NCBI RefSeq assembly: GCF_002920915.1
Contig: NZ_PQVF01000009.1
Location: 1-64,000 of the forward strand
Length of the DNA stretch: 64,000 bases
From: Solitalea longa
GTDB taxonomy: Bacteria; Bacteroidota; Bacteroidia; Sphingobacteriales; Sphingobacteriaceae
Direction of reading: 5' to 3'
Shown here: piece after piece, positions 35,735 to 49,000 of the stretch
Layout of the letters: every line of letters starts with the position of its first letter
Numbering within the stretch: position 1 is the first letter of the stretch
Program-made: the position numbers and the translations under genes
The notes under the pieces: model-generated
Seen by the model: only the letters and a program-made list of their open reading frames with translations
Database searches by the model: none
Told to the model about the DNA's origin: nothing

Positions 35735-36106
35735 CTATTTCAAGTGCCTATTGATCCAATGTTTTATTTCTTCAATTCTAAATTTTCCGGTACTCGCGGC
35801 AATTACCATTTCATACTTTTCGTCCTGACTTGCAAAGACGTCCATCCCATTTTCCATTAGAATCAATCGCATTAATACATAAGAAGTACGTTTATTACCA
35901 TCTATAAAAGGGTGATTAATAACAATACTTTCCAAAATGGCTGCCGCCTTTTCAATAGGGGTTGGATATAATTCTTGTTGATCAAAAGTTGCAAATGGAC
36001 GAGAAATAGCAGACTGAAGAGCTCCTATATCTCTAATTCCTTTGCTGCCCCCAAATCGATCAATGAGAATATTGTGAATATTCTCAACATCATTTAAGCT
36101 GATCAT
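35735..36106 (-). CDS. Doc-family (Fic fold) toxin
   Basis: A 123-residue death-on-curing type protein with the Fic/Doc active-site motif HPFIDGNKR (His65 to Arg73) and helical fold ('NIHNILIDRFGGSKGIRDIGALQSAI' in parts). Doc enzymes phosphorylate or modify elongation factor Tu in known cases, stopping translation. It is preceded by a small antitoxin-type gene whose stop overlaps its start (ATGA), which is the usual order for such pairs. It could also be a harmless solitary Fic-like gene, but the pair favours a toxin. Confidence 0.88.
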   Translation of the reverse strand: MISLNDVENIHNILIDRFGGSKGIRDIGALQSAISRPFATFDQQELYPTPIEKAAAILESIVINHPFIDGNKRTSYVLMRLILMENGMDVFASQDEKYEMVIAASTGKFRIEEIKHWINRHLK

Positions 36107-41517: not shown

Positions 41518-42432
41518 TTAGCAGGTAAAATACAAACGCTGAACCTCAGCATTGGTATTAATAAAATCGATCATTTGAGGTACATCCTTTATAATCGTTA
41601 AGCGCGAATGAGGTTTAATGCTTCCGGTTACAGCTAAATTTCCCGAAACCGCAAGTGTCCAGTTAGGCAGATTTTCTAAAATCTTGGAAATAATCAGATT
41701 TACATCGCCAAAAGCGTTATCCGATATCAAAAAAGTTAAGGCGTAATCCGGATCATAATAGTTGGCCACACTTAGCAAATCTTCAAAAGGTAAATTAGCT
41801 CCTAAATACAAAACGTGATGCCCACGGGCTTTGATCATATAATTGGCAAAAAGTAAGCCCAATTCATGAACCTCGCCTTCTGGCAAAAACAACATGTATT
41901 TTTTAGCATGGCTGGGATTAGAAGGCTGGAGGCTATTGATTGCGGTAATTAACTTTTGCCGGATAAGGTGGGTGATAAAATGTTCGTGTGCCGGATTAAT
42001 AGTTCCTGCCTGCCACATAATACCGATCTTACGCATAAAAGGATGAATGACCTCGAGCATAGTCCTTTCCATACCCATAGAATCAAGACTGGTTTGCATT
42101 GTCTCTTCAAAAACTGCCTCATCAAGCGTCAGCATTGCATTACACAACGAACCAATAGTACATGAACAGCCATTAATCTCACATTCCGATAATTTTTCGA
42201 TGTATTTATTGATCTCCTGATCACTCATTTTGGCAATTTCAGAAATACGCATGCCTGAATCGAGCAATAAGGAAATGTTGAGGAATTTCTTCAAGTCGTT
42301 ATCATCAAAATACCTGATATTGGTACAGGTTCTTTTAGGAGTTATTAAATTATAACGTTGTTCCCAAATTCTAATGGTATGCGCTTTAATACCCGTTAAA
42401 CACTCTATATCACTGATCGAGAACTTTTTCAC
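41518..42432 (-). CDS. MerR-family B12-dependent photoreceptor-type regulator with a four-Cys cluster
   Basis: The 304-residue protein (GTG start at 42432) has an N-terminal MerR winged helix ('LTGIKAHTIRIWEQRYNLI', about 1-75), a helical capping domain with the W-x9-EH motif (Trp140, Glu150, His151) and a B12-binding domain with the ExHxxG motif (Glu187, His189, Gly192), the cobalamin axial-ligand signature. Thus it looks like CarH/LitR, which represses in the dark as an AdoCbl tetramer and is released by light. Odd: residues 84-97 form C-x4-C-x-C-x5-C, close to the SoxR [2Fe-2S] motif C-x2-C-x-C-x5-C. A TTGTTTAAACAA palindrome lies upstream, suggesting autoregulation. Confidence 0.9.
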   Translation of the reverse strand: MKKFSISDIECLTGIKAHTIRIWEQRYNLITPKRTCTNIRYFDDNDLKKFLNISLLLDSGMRISEIAKMSDQEINKYIEKLSECEINGCSCTIGSLCNAMLTLDEAVFEETMQTSLDSMGMERTMLEVIHPFMRKIGIMWQAGTINPAHEHFITHLIRQKLITAINSLQPSNPSHAKKYMLFLPEGEVHELGLLFANYMIKARGHHVLYLGANLPFEDLLSVANYYDPDYALTFLISDNAFGDVNLIISKILENLPNWTLAVSGNLAVTGSIKPHSRLTIIKDVPQMIDFINTNAEVQRLYFTC

Positions 42433-42827
42433 TATCCTAAAATTTCTGCAAGTTTAACAATTGTTTTATTAAAGTTGTTTAAACAACATTAATCGAGTGT
42501 AAATTATGCCTTCCTATTCAGCTAACCATTCATTAAAAAAGCATTATTAAATGCCTGTTTTTTGGGGTAAGCGTTAAACAATACCGTAGATCAGAAATGC
42601 AGCTAAATTTCTTATTCTCAATTTATTCTGAAATACATTCCGCAGCAAATTTTTCAGCTCCAGGCATTTATCAATTTAACACAAACAGCTGAATATAGTA
42701 CATTCACAAAAGACTAAACAAACATTTTTATACTTTGTTTTAATTCACTGATTACTAACAGATTTTAATTAGATTTCAATCAAACTAAACCAGTTAAAAC
42801 ATGTTATAAAACTAAATACGCTCAACT
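42433..42827. promoter_or_regulatory. Divergent control region between the MerR and TetR genes
   Basis: This 395-bp AT-rich gap holds the perfect 14-bp palindrome GTTGTTTAAACAAC at 42474-42487, a partial site TTTAACAATTGTT near 42453-42465 (overlapping a TAAACTTG -7-like box at 42456-42449) and a weak GTTAAACAAT at 42573-42582. The remainder shows nothing I can assign and no exact consensus promoter for the TetR gene. Confidence 0.55.
42474..42487. promoter_or_regulatory. Operator palindrome GTTGTTTAAACAAC
   Basis: A perfect 14-bp inverted repeat 42 bp before the MerR start. Its core TGTTTAAACA occurs again, exactly, at 1921-1930 upstream of the ECF sigma gene, and with one-base variants at four or five sites there. 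The likely binder is the MerR protein itself. Confidence 0.7.
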
Positions 42828-43484
42828 ATGAATAGGGAAAAAATTAAAACAGCTTACATCGATTATGTTTTAAGCAATAACGAACAGCCCAAGTCGGTTT
42901 ATGTTTTTGCTAAAAGTTTAAAATTGAAAGAAGAAGAATTTTACCATTACTTCAATTCTTTTGAATCGATTGAAAATGGCATTTGGCTGGATCTTATAAG
43001 ACAAACGGCTGATAATGTAAAAAGCGAGGAAGTGTATGAAGGCTATTCAGCTCGTGAACGCATATTATCGTTCTTTTTTACATTAATTGAATTGATGAAA
43101 GCTCAACGGAGTTTTATCATCTATTCAATAAAACATTCCGGTAAAGGCTTTACTACTCCGGGGATCTTAGAAAAAGCAAAGGAACAATTTGAAGGGTTTG
43201 CGTTAGAAGTGTTGAGTCATGGCATAGAAAACAATGAGATCGTTGAGCGCAAGTTTATTTCTGATAGATATAAAGATGCTTTATGGCTTCAGTTTGTCTT
43301 TATTGTAAATTTTTGGATCAATGATATCAGCGAAAACTTTGAAAAAACCGATGAGGCTATTGAAAAAGGGATCAATGTAACACTGGATCTGATGAGCCGT
43401 GGACCAATTGACAATTTGCTGGAGTATGGTAAATTTTTAGCACAGCAAGGCAAGAATAAAATTAAATTCCCATTCACTGCCTGA
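42828..43484 (+). CDS. TetR-family regulator
   Basis: A 218-residue protein with an N-terminal TetR HTH ('TAYIDYVLSNNEQPKSVYVFAKSLKLKEEEFYHYF' in parts) and a helical ligand-binding C-terminal region. The HTH is atypical ('KSVYVFAKSLKLKEEEFYHYFNSFESIE'). It is 12 bp ahead of the ABC1 kinase gene, so the two are co-transcribed. Ligand unknown; a lipid or quinone-related signal is plausible given the partner. Confidence 0.85.
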   Translation: MNREKIKTAYIDYVLSNNEQPKSVYVFAKSLKLKEEEFYHYFNSFESIENGIWLDLIRQTADNVKSEEVYEGYSARERILSFFFTLIELMKAQRSFIIYSIKHSGKGFTTPGILEKAKEQFEGFALEVLSHGIENNEIVERKFISDRYKDALWLQFVFIVNFWINDISENFEKTDEAIEKGINVTLDLMSRGPIDNLLEYGKFLAQQGKNKIKFPFTA

Positions 43485-43496
43485 TCCATCAAAAAC

Positions 43497-44813
43497 ATGA
43501 AAGAACAAACAAGTATTCCGGTTTCAAAGGTCGAGCGTTCGGTAAAGTTTGTAACCACGGGGGCTAAAGTTGGGGTAAACTACCTGAAACATTATTCCCG
43601 AAAATTAGTGAACCCCGATGCAACAAAAGACCAACTGAATGAAGACAATGCATCCGATATATACATAGCTTTAAGCCAGTTAAAAGGCAGTGCCCTTAAA
43701 ATTGCGCAAATGCTCAGCATGGATAAGAATATACTTCCCAAAGCTTACGCCGAGCAGTTTTCTCAGGCCCAATACAGTGCCCCTCCTCTTTCGGGACCGC
43801 TGATCATCCGCACTTTCACCAAATACTTCGGCAAAGCTCCTGAAAAGATCTACGATTCCTTCAAGCTCAAATCAACACATGCAGCTTCCATCGGACAGGT
43901 TCACCAGGCAACCCTAAATGGTAAAAAGCTAGCTGTTAAAATTCAATATCCCGGTGTTGGCGACAGCATTAACTCTGACCTGAAAATGGTCAAACCATTT
44001 GCTTTCCGGCTTTTGGGCATGTCTGAAGCCGAATTGAATGTATACATCAAGGAAGTGGAAGAAAAACTACTGGAAGAAACTGATTACGAACTGGAAGTAA
44101 AACGTTCACTTTTCTTTTCAAAAGCCTGTAAGCACCTTGATAACATTATTTTCCCTAAGTATTATCCCGAACTATCGAGTAAGCGGATCATTACTATGGA
44201 TTGGATAGAAGGAATACATTTGAGAGAGTACCTGAAAACAGACCCTTCTCAGGCTGAACGAAATCGTATTGGACAGGCTCTTTGGGATTTTTATAATTTC
44301 CAACAACATGAATTACGTCAGGTGCATGCAGATCCTCATCCCGGTAATTTTCTGATCACCCCTGATAGAAAACTGGGAATCATTGATTTTGGCTGTATAA
44401 AAGAACTCCCTGATAATTTTTATTACCCATTTTTCGCTTTTGTTTCTAATCCATTGGGTGATAGGAAAAAAACTATCAATTATTTTAAACAATTAAAGAT
44501 GATCTTTGATGATGACAGTCCTGAAATGGTGGAATTCTATTATCAAAATTATAGCGAAATGATCGGTCTTTTTGCGCGTCCTTTTGTACAAGGTGAATTT
44601 GATTTTAGCAAACCCGGCTACTTTAATGAATTGTTTGTTTTAGGCGAAAAAGTGTCAAAAATGAAAGAATTTAAACAAGCCCGAGGGGTTAAGCATTTTA
44701 TATATGTGAATAGAACCAATTTAGGTCTTTATAATATTTTACACGATTTAGGGGCCAAAGTAAGAACCGATACTTTTAAGCCCCACCTTATAAAAGAGGA
44801 TAAGGAGCAGTAA
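43497..44813 (+). CDS. ABC1/UbiB-type atypical kinase
   Basis: The 438-residue protein has the UbiB/AarF (ABC1) signature: a KxGQ-like motif here KIAQ ('LKIAQMLSMD'), the Ala-rich loop 'AASIGQVHQATLNGKKLAVKIQYPGV' (in parts) with the ATP-binding Lys, and the catalytic loop 'HADPHPGNFLI' with 'LGIIDFGCIKEL'. These membrane-associated ATPases support isoprenoid quinone or lipid metabolism. It follows the TetR gene and precedes an NmrA-like SDR. The KIAQ variant of KxGQ is notable. Confidence 0.93.
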   Translation: MKEQTSIPVSKVERSVKFVTTGAKVGVNYLKHYSRKLVNPDATKDQLNEDNASDIYIALSQLKGSALKIAQMLSMDKNILPKAYAEQFSQAQYSAPPLSGPLIIRTFTKYFGKAPEKIYDSFKLKSTHAASIGQVHQATLNGKKLAVKIQYPGVGDSINSDLKMVKPFAFRLLGMSEAELNVYIKEVEEKLLEETDYELEVKRSLFFSKACKHLDNIIFPKYYPELSSKRIITMDWIEGIHLREYLKTDPSQAERNRIGQALWDFYNFQQHELRQVHADPHPGNFLITPDRKLGIIDFGCIKELPDNFYYPFFAFVSNPLGDRKKTINYFKQLKMIFDDDSPEMVEFYYQNYSEMIGLFARPFVQGEFDFSKPGYFNELFVLGEKVSKMKEFKQARGVKHFIYVNRTNLGLYNILHDLGAKVRTDTFKPHLIKEDKEQ

Positions 44814-44847
44814 TACATTATTGATTCTAAATCCTTTAGGAAAGACC

Positions 44848-45765
44848 ATGAAGATACTTATAGTAGGAATAAATAATTACGTTGGCACGCGCTTATTACC
44901 CGTATTAATTGAAAATGGCCATGAGGTGTTATGCCTGGTTAAAAGCAAAAGCTGTTTTGCCCGGAAACATAATCTGAGTGAGCAATCAAATATAACCGTC
45001 ATAGAAGGCGATCTATTGAAACCTAAATCTCAAATTGATATACCTGGAGATATTGAGACAGCTTTCTTCTTTACGAATTCGAACAATAATTGTTTAAATG
45101 AATTTGCGAACCTGGATGAATTACTTGCCAAAAATTCAGTTGACCGATTAGAGCAAACCAAGTGTAAGCAGATAGTTTATTTAAGTCAAGCGGCCCCATT
45201 CCATCCCAACTTAAAGATTGAAAATATACTCACTTCTGGAATTATTCCTGTTACTATTCTAAGAGCAGGATTTATTGTTGGCACACAAAGCCCAACATTT
45301 GAAATAGTACAGAAACTGGCCGAAAAGTTTCCGATCCTGTTAGCTCCAAAATGGTTAAATCGCTCTTGCTTTCCCGTTGATATCCGCAATGTCTTAGCTT
45401 ATTTATTGGCGGTGGCAGGAAACATTCAAACACTGAACTGCAGCTTTGATATCACCGGACCAAAAGCTATAACTATTAAGCAGATGATAACTGATTACGC
45501 TATGGCTTTGGGTTTAAAACGAAGGCTAATTAATATACCATTGGATTTGACACTATTGTCATCGGCTGGCCTGAAATTAATGAACTCTGTAAGCTTATAT
45601 CAAGCTAAAATGCTGATCAACAACCTAAACGCTACTCCAACAACAGTAAATGATACGATCAAAAAGGTGATCGATATTTACCTATACAGCTATACCGAAT
45701 CGCTGAACTTTTATTTTACTTCATTAAATACCGGTCATAATCCGCTTGCTTTTAGCCGTAATTAA
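44848..45765 (+). CDS. NmrA/atypical SDR-type NAD-binding protein
   Basis: A 305-residue protein started at the ATG at 44848 (MKILIVGINNYVGTRLLP). It has an N-terminal Rossmann fold ('LIVGINNYVGTRLL', here the glycine motif G-x2-x-x-G is loosened), 'ALYYLSQAAP'-type strand and 'ILRAGFIVGTQSPTFEIV', all as in NmrA-like or UDP-glucose-type atypical SDRs that lack the catalytic Lys. Cluster position suggests quinone, lipid or pigment modification or a redox-sensing role. A TTG start at 44821 would add nine residues. Confidence 0.8.
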   Translation: MKILIVGINNYVGTRLLPVLIENGHEVLCLVKSKSCFARKHNLSEQSNITVIEGDLLKPKSQIDIPGDIETAFFFTNSNNNCLNEFANLDELLAKNSVDRLEQTKCKQIVYLSQAAPFHPNLKIENILTSGIIPVTILRAGFIVGTQSPTFEIVQKLAEKFPILLAPKWLNRSCFPVDIRNVLAYLLAVAGNIQTLNCSFDITGPKAITIKQMITDYAMALGLKRRLINIPLDLTLLSSAGLKLMNSVSLYQAKMLINNLNATPTTVNDTIKKVIDIYLYSYTESLNFYFTSLNTGHNPLAFSRN

Positions 45766-46289: not shown

Positions 46290-46327
46290 AACAGGCTGAA
46301 GAAATTCTTCAGCCTGTTCCATTTTTT
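46290..46327. terminator. Terminator between the CBS and ferredoxin genes
   Basis: AACAGGCTGAA (46290-46300) pairs with TTCAGCCTGTT (46308-46318), and on the plus strand it is followed by CCATTTTTTATTT. It serves the CBS gene, and perhaps the convergent ferredoxin gene on the minus strand more weakly. Confidence 0.8.
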
Positions 46328-46673
46328 ATTTAGCCTGCAACTGATCCAACAGTTCCAGGTCCATTACCAAACGACCTACCACTCGGTTATTTACAATGTG
46401 CTCCTCTACAATTTCTTTCACGTCTTCCAATTGCACCTTTGCATAAAAAACACCTTCGGGATAAACAACAACAGAGGGACCTAACTCGCAAGTTTCCATG
46501 CAACCAGCTCTCTGTGCCCTTATCTCGGTATTCAATCCCTTATCTTTAATCAATTTCTTAAATTCTGCAACAAGGGCTAAGCCGTGTTTTTCTCCGCAGC
46601 AAACCCTGGTTCCAGGCGCCCGCTCATTTGTGCAAACAAAAATATGTTTGGTGTATTTGGTTTTATATTCCAT
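46326..46673 (-). CDS. Thioredoxin-like [2Fe-2S] ferredoxin
   Basis: A 115-residue thioredoxin-like ferredoxin of the NuoE-C-terminal type: 'HIFVCTNERAPGTRVCCGEKHG' (in parts) and 'GCMETCELGPSVVVYPEGVFYAKV' (in parts) hold four Cys of the [2Fe-2S] site. Function may be electron transfer to assembly or detoxification enzymes; partner unknown. It is convergent with the CBS gene. Confidence 0.88.
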   Translation of the reverse strand: MEYKTKYTKHIFVCTNERAPGTRVCCGEKHGLALVAEFKKLIKDKGLNTEIRAQRAGCMETCELGPSVVVYPEGVFYAKVQLEDVKEIVEEHIVNNRVVGRLVMDLELLDQLQAK

Positions 46674-46765: not shown

Positions 46766-47680
46766 ATGAAAAACATATTAATTGCTGGAGGAAGTGGCTT
46801 AATTGGGAAACAATTAACCAAACTATTAATTCATAAAGGTTATTCTGTTGGTTGGTTGACTCATTCAGCTATAACTCCTTCCTCATCTGTTCAACTATTC
46901 AGGTGGAATCTGGAGAATGAGCATATTGATAAAGAAGCCATTGATTTTGCTGATGCTATTATCAATCTGGCCGGAACAGGAATAGCTGAAAAACCCTGGA
47001 CTGCAAAACGTAAACAGGAAATTGTGAATAGTAGAGTTAACAGTATAGAACTGTTGATGGCCTCCATTAAAGCTTCAGCCAAACAGCTGCACTGTTTTGT
47101 TTCTGCGTCAGCAATTGGCTACTATGGCAATAAAGGCGATAAAATAGTATTTGAGAACGAAGAACCCGCTGCTGATTTTTTAGGCCAATGCTGTATTACC
47201 TGGGAGAATGCTGCTGACGAAGTCTCAAAATTGAATATAAGAACTGTAAAGCTTCGCACAGGTATTGTATTAAGTAAGCAGGGCGGAGCGCTCCCAAAAA
47301 TATTAAGGCCCTTAAAGCTCGGTTTAGGAGCTGCTTTAGGCAATGGAAATCAATGGATGAGTTGGATTCACATTGTCGACCTGTGCAATATGTACATCTA
47401 TGCCATAGAAAATCAAGATCTTACAGGTACTTTTAACGCAACTGCCCCTAATCCTGTTACCAATTTTCAATTCAATAAAATAATTGCGGAAAGCTTGAAT
47501 AAATCAATTTGGTTGCCAAACGTTCCTGAATTTGTATTATCAATTGCATTAGGAAACCGCAAACAGCTGCTACTGGACAGCACCCGTTGTTCATCGCGGG
47601 CCATTGCTCAAACAGGATTCAAATTCAGTTATCCTGAATTCGATAAAGCCATTAAGCAACTTCTTTCCTCATCTGTTTAG
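46766..47680 (+). CDS. TIGR01777-family SDR epimerase
   Basis: A 304-residue atypical extended SDR (SulA/YfcH-type): N-terminal 'LIAGGSGLIGKQLTKLL', 'INLAGTGIAEKPWTAKRKQEIVNSRVNS' (in parts), 'VSASAIGYYGNKGD' with the active Tyr, and the typical DUF1731 C-terminal '...LLDSTRCSSRAIAQTGFKFSYP'. Physiological substrate unknown. Homologues in other phyla are fused to SRPBCC domains, and an SRPBCC gene sits at 1924 beside the ECF sigma gene. It precedes the photolyase gene by 6 bp. Confidence 0.9.
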   Translation: MKNILIAGGSGLIGKQLTKLLIHKGYSVGWLTHSAITPSSSVQLFRWNLENEHIDKEAIDFADAIINLAGTGIAEKPWTAKRKQEIVNSRVNSIELLMASIKASAKQLHCFVSASAIGYYGNKGDKIVFENEEPAADFLGQCCITWENAADEVSKLNIRTVKLRTGIVLSKQGGALPKILRPLKLGLGAALGNGNQWMSWIHIVDLCNMYIYAIENQDLTGTFNATAPNPVTNFQFNKIIAESLNKSIWLPNVPEFVLSIALGNRKQLLLDSTRCSSRAIAQTGFKFSYPEFDKAIKQLLSSSV

Positions 47681-47686
47681 TTTTTG

Positions 47687-49000
47687 ATGAAAAAAAATAA
47701 AGTAAATATCTTTTGGTTTCGCAGAGATTTAAGGTTGAACGATAATCCAGGCCTCTATCACGCACTCAAAAGCGGACTTCCGGTTTTACCCCTTTTTATT
47801 TTTGATACTATTATTTTAAATAAACTTGAAGATCGTGCTGATGCCAGAGTAAGCTTTATCCATCAAGCTCTAACGCAATTATCTAATGAATTAGCCTCGT
47901 TTAATAGCAGCTTGATTATAAAACACGGTTCTCCCAAAGATGTATGGCTCGCTTTGCAGAACGAATACTCTATTGAAAATGTATTCATTAATCATGATTA
48001 TGAACCTTATGCCATGTTGCGTGATGAGGAAGTAAAAGAGTTGCTAAAACAGAAAAATATTGAGTTACTCGATTTTAAAGATCAGGCAATATTTGAAAAG
48101 AACGAAGTTTTAAAAAATGATGGAAAACCCTATTCAGTTTTCACACCCTATAAAAACAAATGGTTAAAGAAGCTTAACGATTTTTATCTACGCACTTATC
48201 CGAGTGAAAAACACCTTTCCTATTTTTTTAAAACACCAAAAAGCCCAATTCCTTCATTAAAAGCTCTTGGATTTGAGCAAAGCTTCAGTGAGTTCCCTGA
48301 AAAGGAATATGAAAACATATTTGCCAATTACGATAAACATAGAAATATTCCTTCAATAAAAGGCACTTCTCATATCAGTGTTCATCTCCGTTTTGGCACA
48401 GTTAGCATTAGGGAATTGGTTCGAAATGCCCAGGAAAGAAATGCAGAAACTTGGTTAAACGAGCTTATTTGGCGTGATTTCTACTTTATGATTATATGGC
48501 ATTTCCCTCATGTTATCGATCGGTCGTTTAAACCCGAATATGATCAGATAAAATGGAGAAACAATGAAGAGGAATTTAGGTTATGGTGCGAAGGGAAAAC
48601 TGGATACCCGATTGTTGATGCAGGTATGAGGGAATTAAACACTACCGGCTTTATGCATAACAGGGTTAGGATGATTACTGCCAGTTTTCTTACCAAACAC
48701 CTGTTAATTGACTGGAGATGGGGAGAGACTTATTTTGCCAAAAAACTATTAGACTTTGAGCTTTCAAGCAATAACGGGGGTTGGCAATGGGTTGCGGGCT
48801 CGGGATGTGATGCCGCTCCATATTTCAGAATCTTTAACCCTCATGAACAAACAAAAAAATTTGACCCCCAATTAGAATACATAAAAAAATGGGTACCTGA
48901 ATTTGATCAACCCAACTACCCATTTCCCATTGTTGAGCACCAGTACGCTCGCCAACGTTGTTTAATGGTTTACAAATTGGCACTAAAGAGCCTGAAGTAA
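47687..49000 (+). CDS. phrB: Deoxyribodipyrimidine photolyase (CPD class I / cryptochrome family)
   Basis: A 437-residue FAD photolyase using the ATG at 47687 (a TTG in the codon before is not needed). N-terminal photolyase alpha/beta domain 'VNIFWFRRDLRLNDNPGLYHAL' (in parts), then the FAD-binding domain with 'WLNELIWRDFYFMIIWHFP' (in parts), 'CEGKTGYPIVDAGMRELNTTGFMHNRVRMI' (in parts), 'NNGGWQWVAGSGCDAAPYFRIFNP' (in parts). It repairs UV-induced cyclobutane dimers with blue light. Its place beside a photoreceptor-type regulator supports a light-induced cluster. The last 18 bp overlap the convergent FKBP gene. Confidence 0.93.
   Translation: MKKNKVNIFWFRRDLRLNDNPGLYHALKSGLPVLPLFIFDTIILNKLEDRADARVSFIHQALTQLSNELASFNSSLIIKHGSPKDVWLALQNEYSIENVFINHDYEPYAMLRDEEVKELLKQKNIELLDFKDQAIFEKNEVLKNDGKPYSVFTPYKNKWLKKLNDFYLRTYPSEKHLSYFFKTPKSPIPSLKALGFEQSFSEFPEKEYENIFANYDKHRNIPSIKGTSHISVHLRFGTVSIRELVRNAQERNAETWLNELIWRDFYFMIIWHFPHVIDRSFKPEYDQIKWRNNEEEFRLWCEGKTGYPIVDAGMRELNTTGFMHNRVRMITASFLTKHLLIDWRWGETYFAKKLLDFELSSNNGGWQWVAGSGCDAAPYFRIFNPHEQTKKFDPQLEYIKKWVPEFDQPNYPFPIVEHQYARQRCLMVYKLALKSLK

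Follow-up and report, generated by a model that had tools for sequence, protein, structure and literature searches.

The window, a stretch of 64,000 nucleotides from Solitalea longa, carries on its reverse strand a gene for a MerR-type regulator resembling CarH and LitR, and a divergent group of genes (Table 1). The regulator gene is present in a single copy in the Solitalea longa genome (4.5 Mb, 36 contigs), and the nearest named record to its product belongs to Solitalea agri, with 86% identity. Both the GTG start codon and the VKKFSI sequence that follows it are kept in four Solitalea species and in two species of a sister genus. The PF02310 match to the Rossmann half of the B12 domain (E 5e-4) lies under the Pfam cut-off. 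At another place in the window, 35735-36106 on the reverse strand, a Fic/DOC-domain protein of 123 aa is encoded, possibly a member of a toxin-antitoxin pair.

Table 1. Position of the regulator gene, of its domains and cysteine sites, and of neighbouring features in the window
Feature	Position	Strand	Basis
CarH/LitR-like MerR regulator gene, 304 aa, GTG start	41518..42432	(-)	translation, Pfam, NCBIfam, fold search
MerR HTH domain, residues 4-72	42217..42423	(-)	PF13411, E 6.9e-15
Four-helix bundle half of B12 domain, residues 96-161; contains G137, W140, E150, H151	41950..42147	(-)	PF02607, E 2.5e-10
Rossmann half of B12 domain, residues 185-266; G186-x2-H189, G211-x3-P215	41635..41880	(-)	PF02310, signature, fold
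Four-Cys hinge motif C84-x4-C89-x-C91-x5-C97, at the junction of HTH and four-helix bundle	42142..42183	(-)	translation, homologue alignment
Cys11, first HTH helix	42400..42402	(-)	homologue alignment
C-terminal tail NAEVQRLYFTC, residues 294-304, with Cys304 as its last residue	41521..41553	(-)	homologue alignment
Conserved element AAACAACTTTAATAAAACAATTGTTAAACTTG, immediately upstream of the gene; putative promoter and self-operator	42449..42480	(-)	comparison of four Solitalea
Divergent TetR-type regulator, ABC1/UbiB-type kinase, SDR-like protein	42828..45765	(+)	families; syntenic in 4/4 Solitalea
[2Fe-2S] ferredoxin-like gene in a putative light-gene neighbourhood	46326-46673	(-)	NF041612/NF041613, below cut-off
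YfcH-type epimerase and DNA photolyase pair	46766..49000	(+)	families, synteny

Probable assignment to the CarH/LitR photoreceptors

The published light-response signature comprises the motifs GxxW, EH, GxxH and GxxxP (PMC11796333). In the Solitalea protein it is complete, in the form of G137-x2-W140, E150-H151, G186-x2-H189 and G211-x3-P215. The original prediction of a CarH-like B12 photoreceptor had named W140-x9-E150-H151 and E187-x-H189-x2-G192; both are present, along with G137 and G211-x3-P215, and the signature, the predicted fold and the top NCBIfam family, CarH, all bore the prediction out. The AlphaFold2 model was built with 98 aligned homologues and reached a pLDDT of 90. The best Foldseek matches of the predicted fold include full-length CarH in the dark and DNA-bound forms, and are headed by full-length Thermus CarH (5c8d, E 2.8e-16), which also heads the sequence matches in the PDB. 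The CarH equivalog NF052513 was the best NCBIfam family, but its score of 102.3 bits remained under the curated cut-off of 400 bits. Therefore, the protein is classed as CarH/LitR-like, class I, and not as a member of this equivalog. A PduO-type cobalamin adenosyltransferase, that is, an enzyme of the type that makes AdoCbl, is encoded in all four Solitalea genomes, and the BtuR-type enzyme, which was also sought there, is absent. Judging from the sequence and the modelled fold, the Solitalea protein is most likely a CarH/LitR-type photoreceptor, which would bind AdoCbl and respond to light.

Parts of the B12 light signature are lost in some other CarH-like homologues from Bacteroidota (L120, L124, L127, L134, L141, L144 and L039; e.g. 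GYESGQGS, EREQ), and their sequences suggest B12-free or light-independent derivatives. A second, more distant CarH-like paralogue, with 34-43% identity to the window protein, occurs in G099, G119, G169 and other genomes of the family.

Cysteines of the hinge, the HTH and the tail

Translation of 41518-42432 on the reverse strand gives SECEINGCSCTIGSLCNAM, with cysteines at positions 84, 89, 91 and 97. The predicted motif C-x4-C-x-C-x5-C proved exact, its codons running from 42183 (Cys84) to 42142 (Cys97). The protein has seven cysteines in total, and those outside the hinge, Cys11, Cys36 and the last residue, Cys304, had been omitted from the prediction. By chance, about 0.1% of 304-aa proteins with the local composition would have four cysteines within 14 residues, and the figure is 0.7% when the seven cysteines of this protein are taken as given. 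A chance origin of the cluster is unlikely, given its presence in all four Solitalea species. Roughly 160 Solitalea ORFs served as the background of cysteine density. Among them, four cysteines in 14 residues are otherwise found only in a complex I Fer4 protein of the window and in a short ORF in L175, the sequence of which reads like that of a ferredoxin. Three or more cysteines in 14 residues occur elsewhere in the window only in four complex I subunits, which have Fe-S domains, and in one protein matching 2Fe-2S ferredoxin models. Since the only other equally cysteine-rich ORFs look like iron-sulphur proteins, a metal or redox site in the hinge is plausible.

Homologues were gathered from Bacteroidota genomes, and Solitalea was represented by four species in the genome set. 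The four hinge cysteines are present in every one of these species and in none of the 164 other Bacteroidota homologues, most of which have no linker cysteine at all. The predicted cluster is thus real and conserved, but this conservation, proposed originally as a check among orthologues, holds within the genus and does not extend to the orthologues of other genera. The accompanying claim, that other CarH-like proteins lack these cysteines, stands for the 164 Bacteroidota homologues; beyond this phylum the sample consisted of Thermus CarH alone. A contig scan returned two homologues only, one of them apparently from the same Solitalea species as G029. Other genera of the family share the gene order odhB-odhA-carH, and their carH genes, which lack the cluster, are therefore genuine orthologues in the same genomic place. 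The maximum-likelihood tree unites the four-Cys proteins with a support of 100/99, and the comparison of sequences shows a single origin of the cluster, on the Solitalea branch. Residues 84-94 are invariant across Solitalea despite silent changes in 8 of the 11 codons; those of Cys84 and Cys97, too, differ silently between the species. However, another genus also conserves these hinge columns (11/14), with different residues, so that invariance alone is weak evidence for a role of the cysteines. Gly88 and Gly94, which are atypical for relatives at those columns, were gained alongside the cysteines. Partial linker cysteines (position 91) occur in the related genomes L023, L024 and L033. L024, which belongs to the same family, has three of them, arranged as C-x3-C-x5-C, and these sequences perhaps show a similar cluster beginning to form independently.

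The sister genus (G007, G032) joins Solitalea on the tree with a support of 98/97. Its proteins do not have the four-Cys cluster and keep Cys11, one linker cysteine (position 90/91), Cys97 and the C-terminal F-T-C. Cys11 is found in all six members of this clade, in a column that is variable and mostly polar elsewhere (N, Q, G, S, K and others). Tail residues 294-304 are invariant in the four Solitalea species, and the terminal FTC is common to the sister genus; most other homologues end at least seven residues before the end of the Solitalea tail, and no homologue outside these two genera ends in cysteine. Because the sister genus keeps related cysteines, HTH, hinge and tail probably all carried cysteine in the common ancestor of both genera, and Solitalea then probably added hinge cysteines and the two glycines (88 and 94). 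A lineage-specific cysteine system joining the DNA-binding domain, the hinge and the tail, with a thiol or metal site as the link from DNA-binding domain to sensor, fits better than a transplanted SoxR module.

The likeness to SoxR that had been predicted for the cluster was not confirmed. E. coli SoxR, its sequence confirmed against 2zhg, was used as the reference. BLASTP gave no alignment between it and the Solitalea protein at E 100, the NCBIfam search of the Solitalea protein returned no SoxR model at E 0.01, and homology to SoxR was rejected on these grounds. The SoxR motif, C-x2-C-x-C-x5-C, is not matched in spacing, which is x4 in place of x2 at the start of the motif in all four Solitalea species, nor in position. 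In SoxR the motif follows the dimerisation helix and contacts the DNA-binding domain of the partner (PMC8063818), whereas in Solitalea the cluster at residues 84-97 lies close behind the HTH and ahead of the four-helix bundle, without a preceding dimerisation helix. Convergence on a SoxR-like set of ligands is possible. In the AlphaFold2 model Cys84 forms the end of one helix, residues 85-88 a turn, and Cys89-Cys97 the start of the next helix. The hinge is the region of lowest confidence apart from the C-terminal tail. As relatives without these cysteines dominate the alignment, the modelled hinge helix says little about a metal-bound state; a second model, built from six sequences only, was of low confidence.

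Upstream element and gene neighbourhood

Upstream of the gene, the block AAACAAC-N7-AAACAATTGTTAAACTTG (as read in the window) is nearly unchanged in the four Solitalea species while the remaining intergenic region diverges. The element includes a perfect palindrome, AACAATTGTT, which is present in all four species and absent at the loci of other genera examined. One exact copy of the element exists genome-wide, at the carH-like gene itself, and when mismatches are allowed, the number of matches is about that of controls. Therefore, no regulon was drawn from it.

In Solitalea, the order of genes past the carH-like gene is TetR, ABC1/UbiB-type kinase, SDR-like protein, CBS protein, ferredoxin-like protein (84-92% identity across Solitalea) and YfcH, followed by the photolyase in three of the four species within the stretch read. 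From their position, the TetR, UbiB-type and SDR-like genes are a candidate regulon, and the YfcH epimerase and photolyase, from position and family, are candidate light-responsive genes. In Pseudomonas, class II LitR proteins reportedly regulate the photolyase gene and others related to it (PMC9758184). Other genera of the family likewise have a photolyase/cryptochrome-like gene close to their carH orthologue (L202:2765-4060, L204:10411-11736, L207:8270-9583), and these genes are only 26-29% identical to the photolyase of the window. A phytoene synthase family gene was found in just one of the four Solitalea genomes, so that control of carotenoids is unlikely as a shared role, and it was rejected as the main job of the regulator.

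Possible role of the cysteines and comparison with known systems

Most likely, on the analysis as a whole, the photoreceptor regulates its own transcription as well as genes for photoprotection, and its hinge is tuned by a thiol or Fe-S site. In the dark, AdoCbl-bound oligomers would occupy DNA, including their own promoter, and repress transcription. Light would break the Co-C bond and dissociate the oligomer, which would free the gene of the regulator itself together with photoprotection genes (photolyase, oxidoreductases). The cysteines, as redox-active thiols or as an Fe-S or other metal site, may alter how the DNA-binding domains are held, and the light response would then be gated by the oxidation or metal state through the hinge. 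Whether the cysteines form a functional thiol, Fe-S or metal site is evenly balanced, with both the chemistry and the target genes being putative. The stricter proposal, that the Solitalea lineage has evolved a single transcription factor uniting an AdoCbl photoreceptor with an Fe-S or other redox cluster in the hinge, as a joint gate for light and oxidation, is unlikely.

The protein may also be an ordinary CarH-type photoreceptor, the cysteines of which are a quirk of the lineage without sensory function, in a hinge constrained as a whole. The absence of the cluster from every orthologue outside Solitalea and the conservation of the hinge columns with other residues in another genus are consistent with this, as is the predicted helix, which by its geometry would keep Cys91 and Cys97 apart. 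However, a comparable cysteine density is seen here otherwise only in Fe-S-type proteins, the helix-breaking glycines were acquired together with the cysteines, and three separate cysteine sites (HTH, hinge and tail) are kept across two genera, so this explanation is regarded as rather doubtful. A special case of the preferred reading, in which thiols or a metal site tune the hinge, is a convergent SoxR-like [2Fe-2S] cluster on Cys84/89/91/97, the redox state of which would control the hinge. The layout G-C-x-C-x5-C is the same as in the latter half of the motif of SoxR, all four cysteines fall in one stretch of low model confidence, and the proteins of comparable cysteine density are Fe-S proteins. 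This special case nevertheless appears distinctly unlikely: it is opposed by the x4 spacing in place of x2, by the lack of homology to SoxR and by the predicted helical hinge, and, with two linker cysteines in the sister genus, a four-ligand hinge site would be restricted to Solitalea.

The MerR relatives CueR and ZntR, which the protein matches weakly and at the HTH only, sense metals with cysteines, and the Solitalea cysteines could likewise be a Zn(II) or Cu(I) site, structural or metal-sensing, without redox cycling. The position and spacing of the cluster are unlike those of CueR and ZntR, though, and no metal-handling genes were recognised in the examined part of the neighbourhood; such a site is very unlikely. 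Most improbable of all is a cobalamin-binding regulator that follows the B12 level or acts independently of light. The unmet NCBIfam cut-off and the lack of the classical carotenoid target, phytoene synthase, in three of four Solitalea would agree with it, but the light-response signature is complete, W140 and H151 included, and a photolyase is encoded in the neighbourhood.

It had also been claimed that a light sensor and a redox sensor in one protein would be new. This was overstated, as the CarH photoresponse is reported to integrate light and oxygen through the redox state of cobalt (PMC10442372), and in the CrtJ/AerR pair B12-based light sensing is coupled to a redox-active cysteine of an HTH (PMC9144470). 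The open-licence literature searched yielded no account of a CarH/LitR protein with a cysteine cluster, nor any experiment on a CarH of Bacteroidota. Cysteines in the hinge and HTH of a B12 photoreceptor are a natural case of a second input added to a light switch, and the cysteine-free orthologues at the same locus are ready-made controls. If the proposal is true, the hinge cluster may let the light sensor respond to oxygen or metals as well, and the Solitalea regulator would be a useful part for optogenetics.

Summarizing the relation to known systems, Thermus thermophilus CarH (class I LitR; 5c8d, 5c8e, 5c8f) has the same arrangement of MerR HTH, four-helix bundle and Rossmann B12 domain and shares the W, E-H, H and G-x3-P signature, with about 21% identity over the fold alignment. 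Its hinge has no cysteine at the matching place, whereas the Solitalea protein adds the hinge cysteines, Cys11 and the tail Cys304. The class II-V LitR proteins (Pseudomonas, Burkholderia, Vibrio, Micrococcales) are also MerR regulators of the LitR/CarH family, but their B12 domain is incomplete or unrecognisable, while in the Solitalea protein both halves of this domain are present, as is the signature. SoxR (2zhg/2zhh) has in common with the Solitalea protein a MerR-type HTH and the C-x-C-x5-C preceded by glycine; its motif, however, starts with C-x2-C and follows the dimerisation helix, whereas that of Solitalea starts with C-x4-C and lies ahead of the sensor domain. The logic proposed for Solitalea, B12 light sensing together with a redox-active HTH cysteine, is that of CrtJ (PpsR) and AerR of Rhodobacter. 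These are two separate proteins, CrtJ being of another family and the pair having no hinge cluster, whereas in Solitalea both inputs would meet in one protein.
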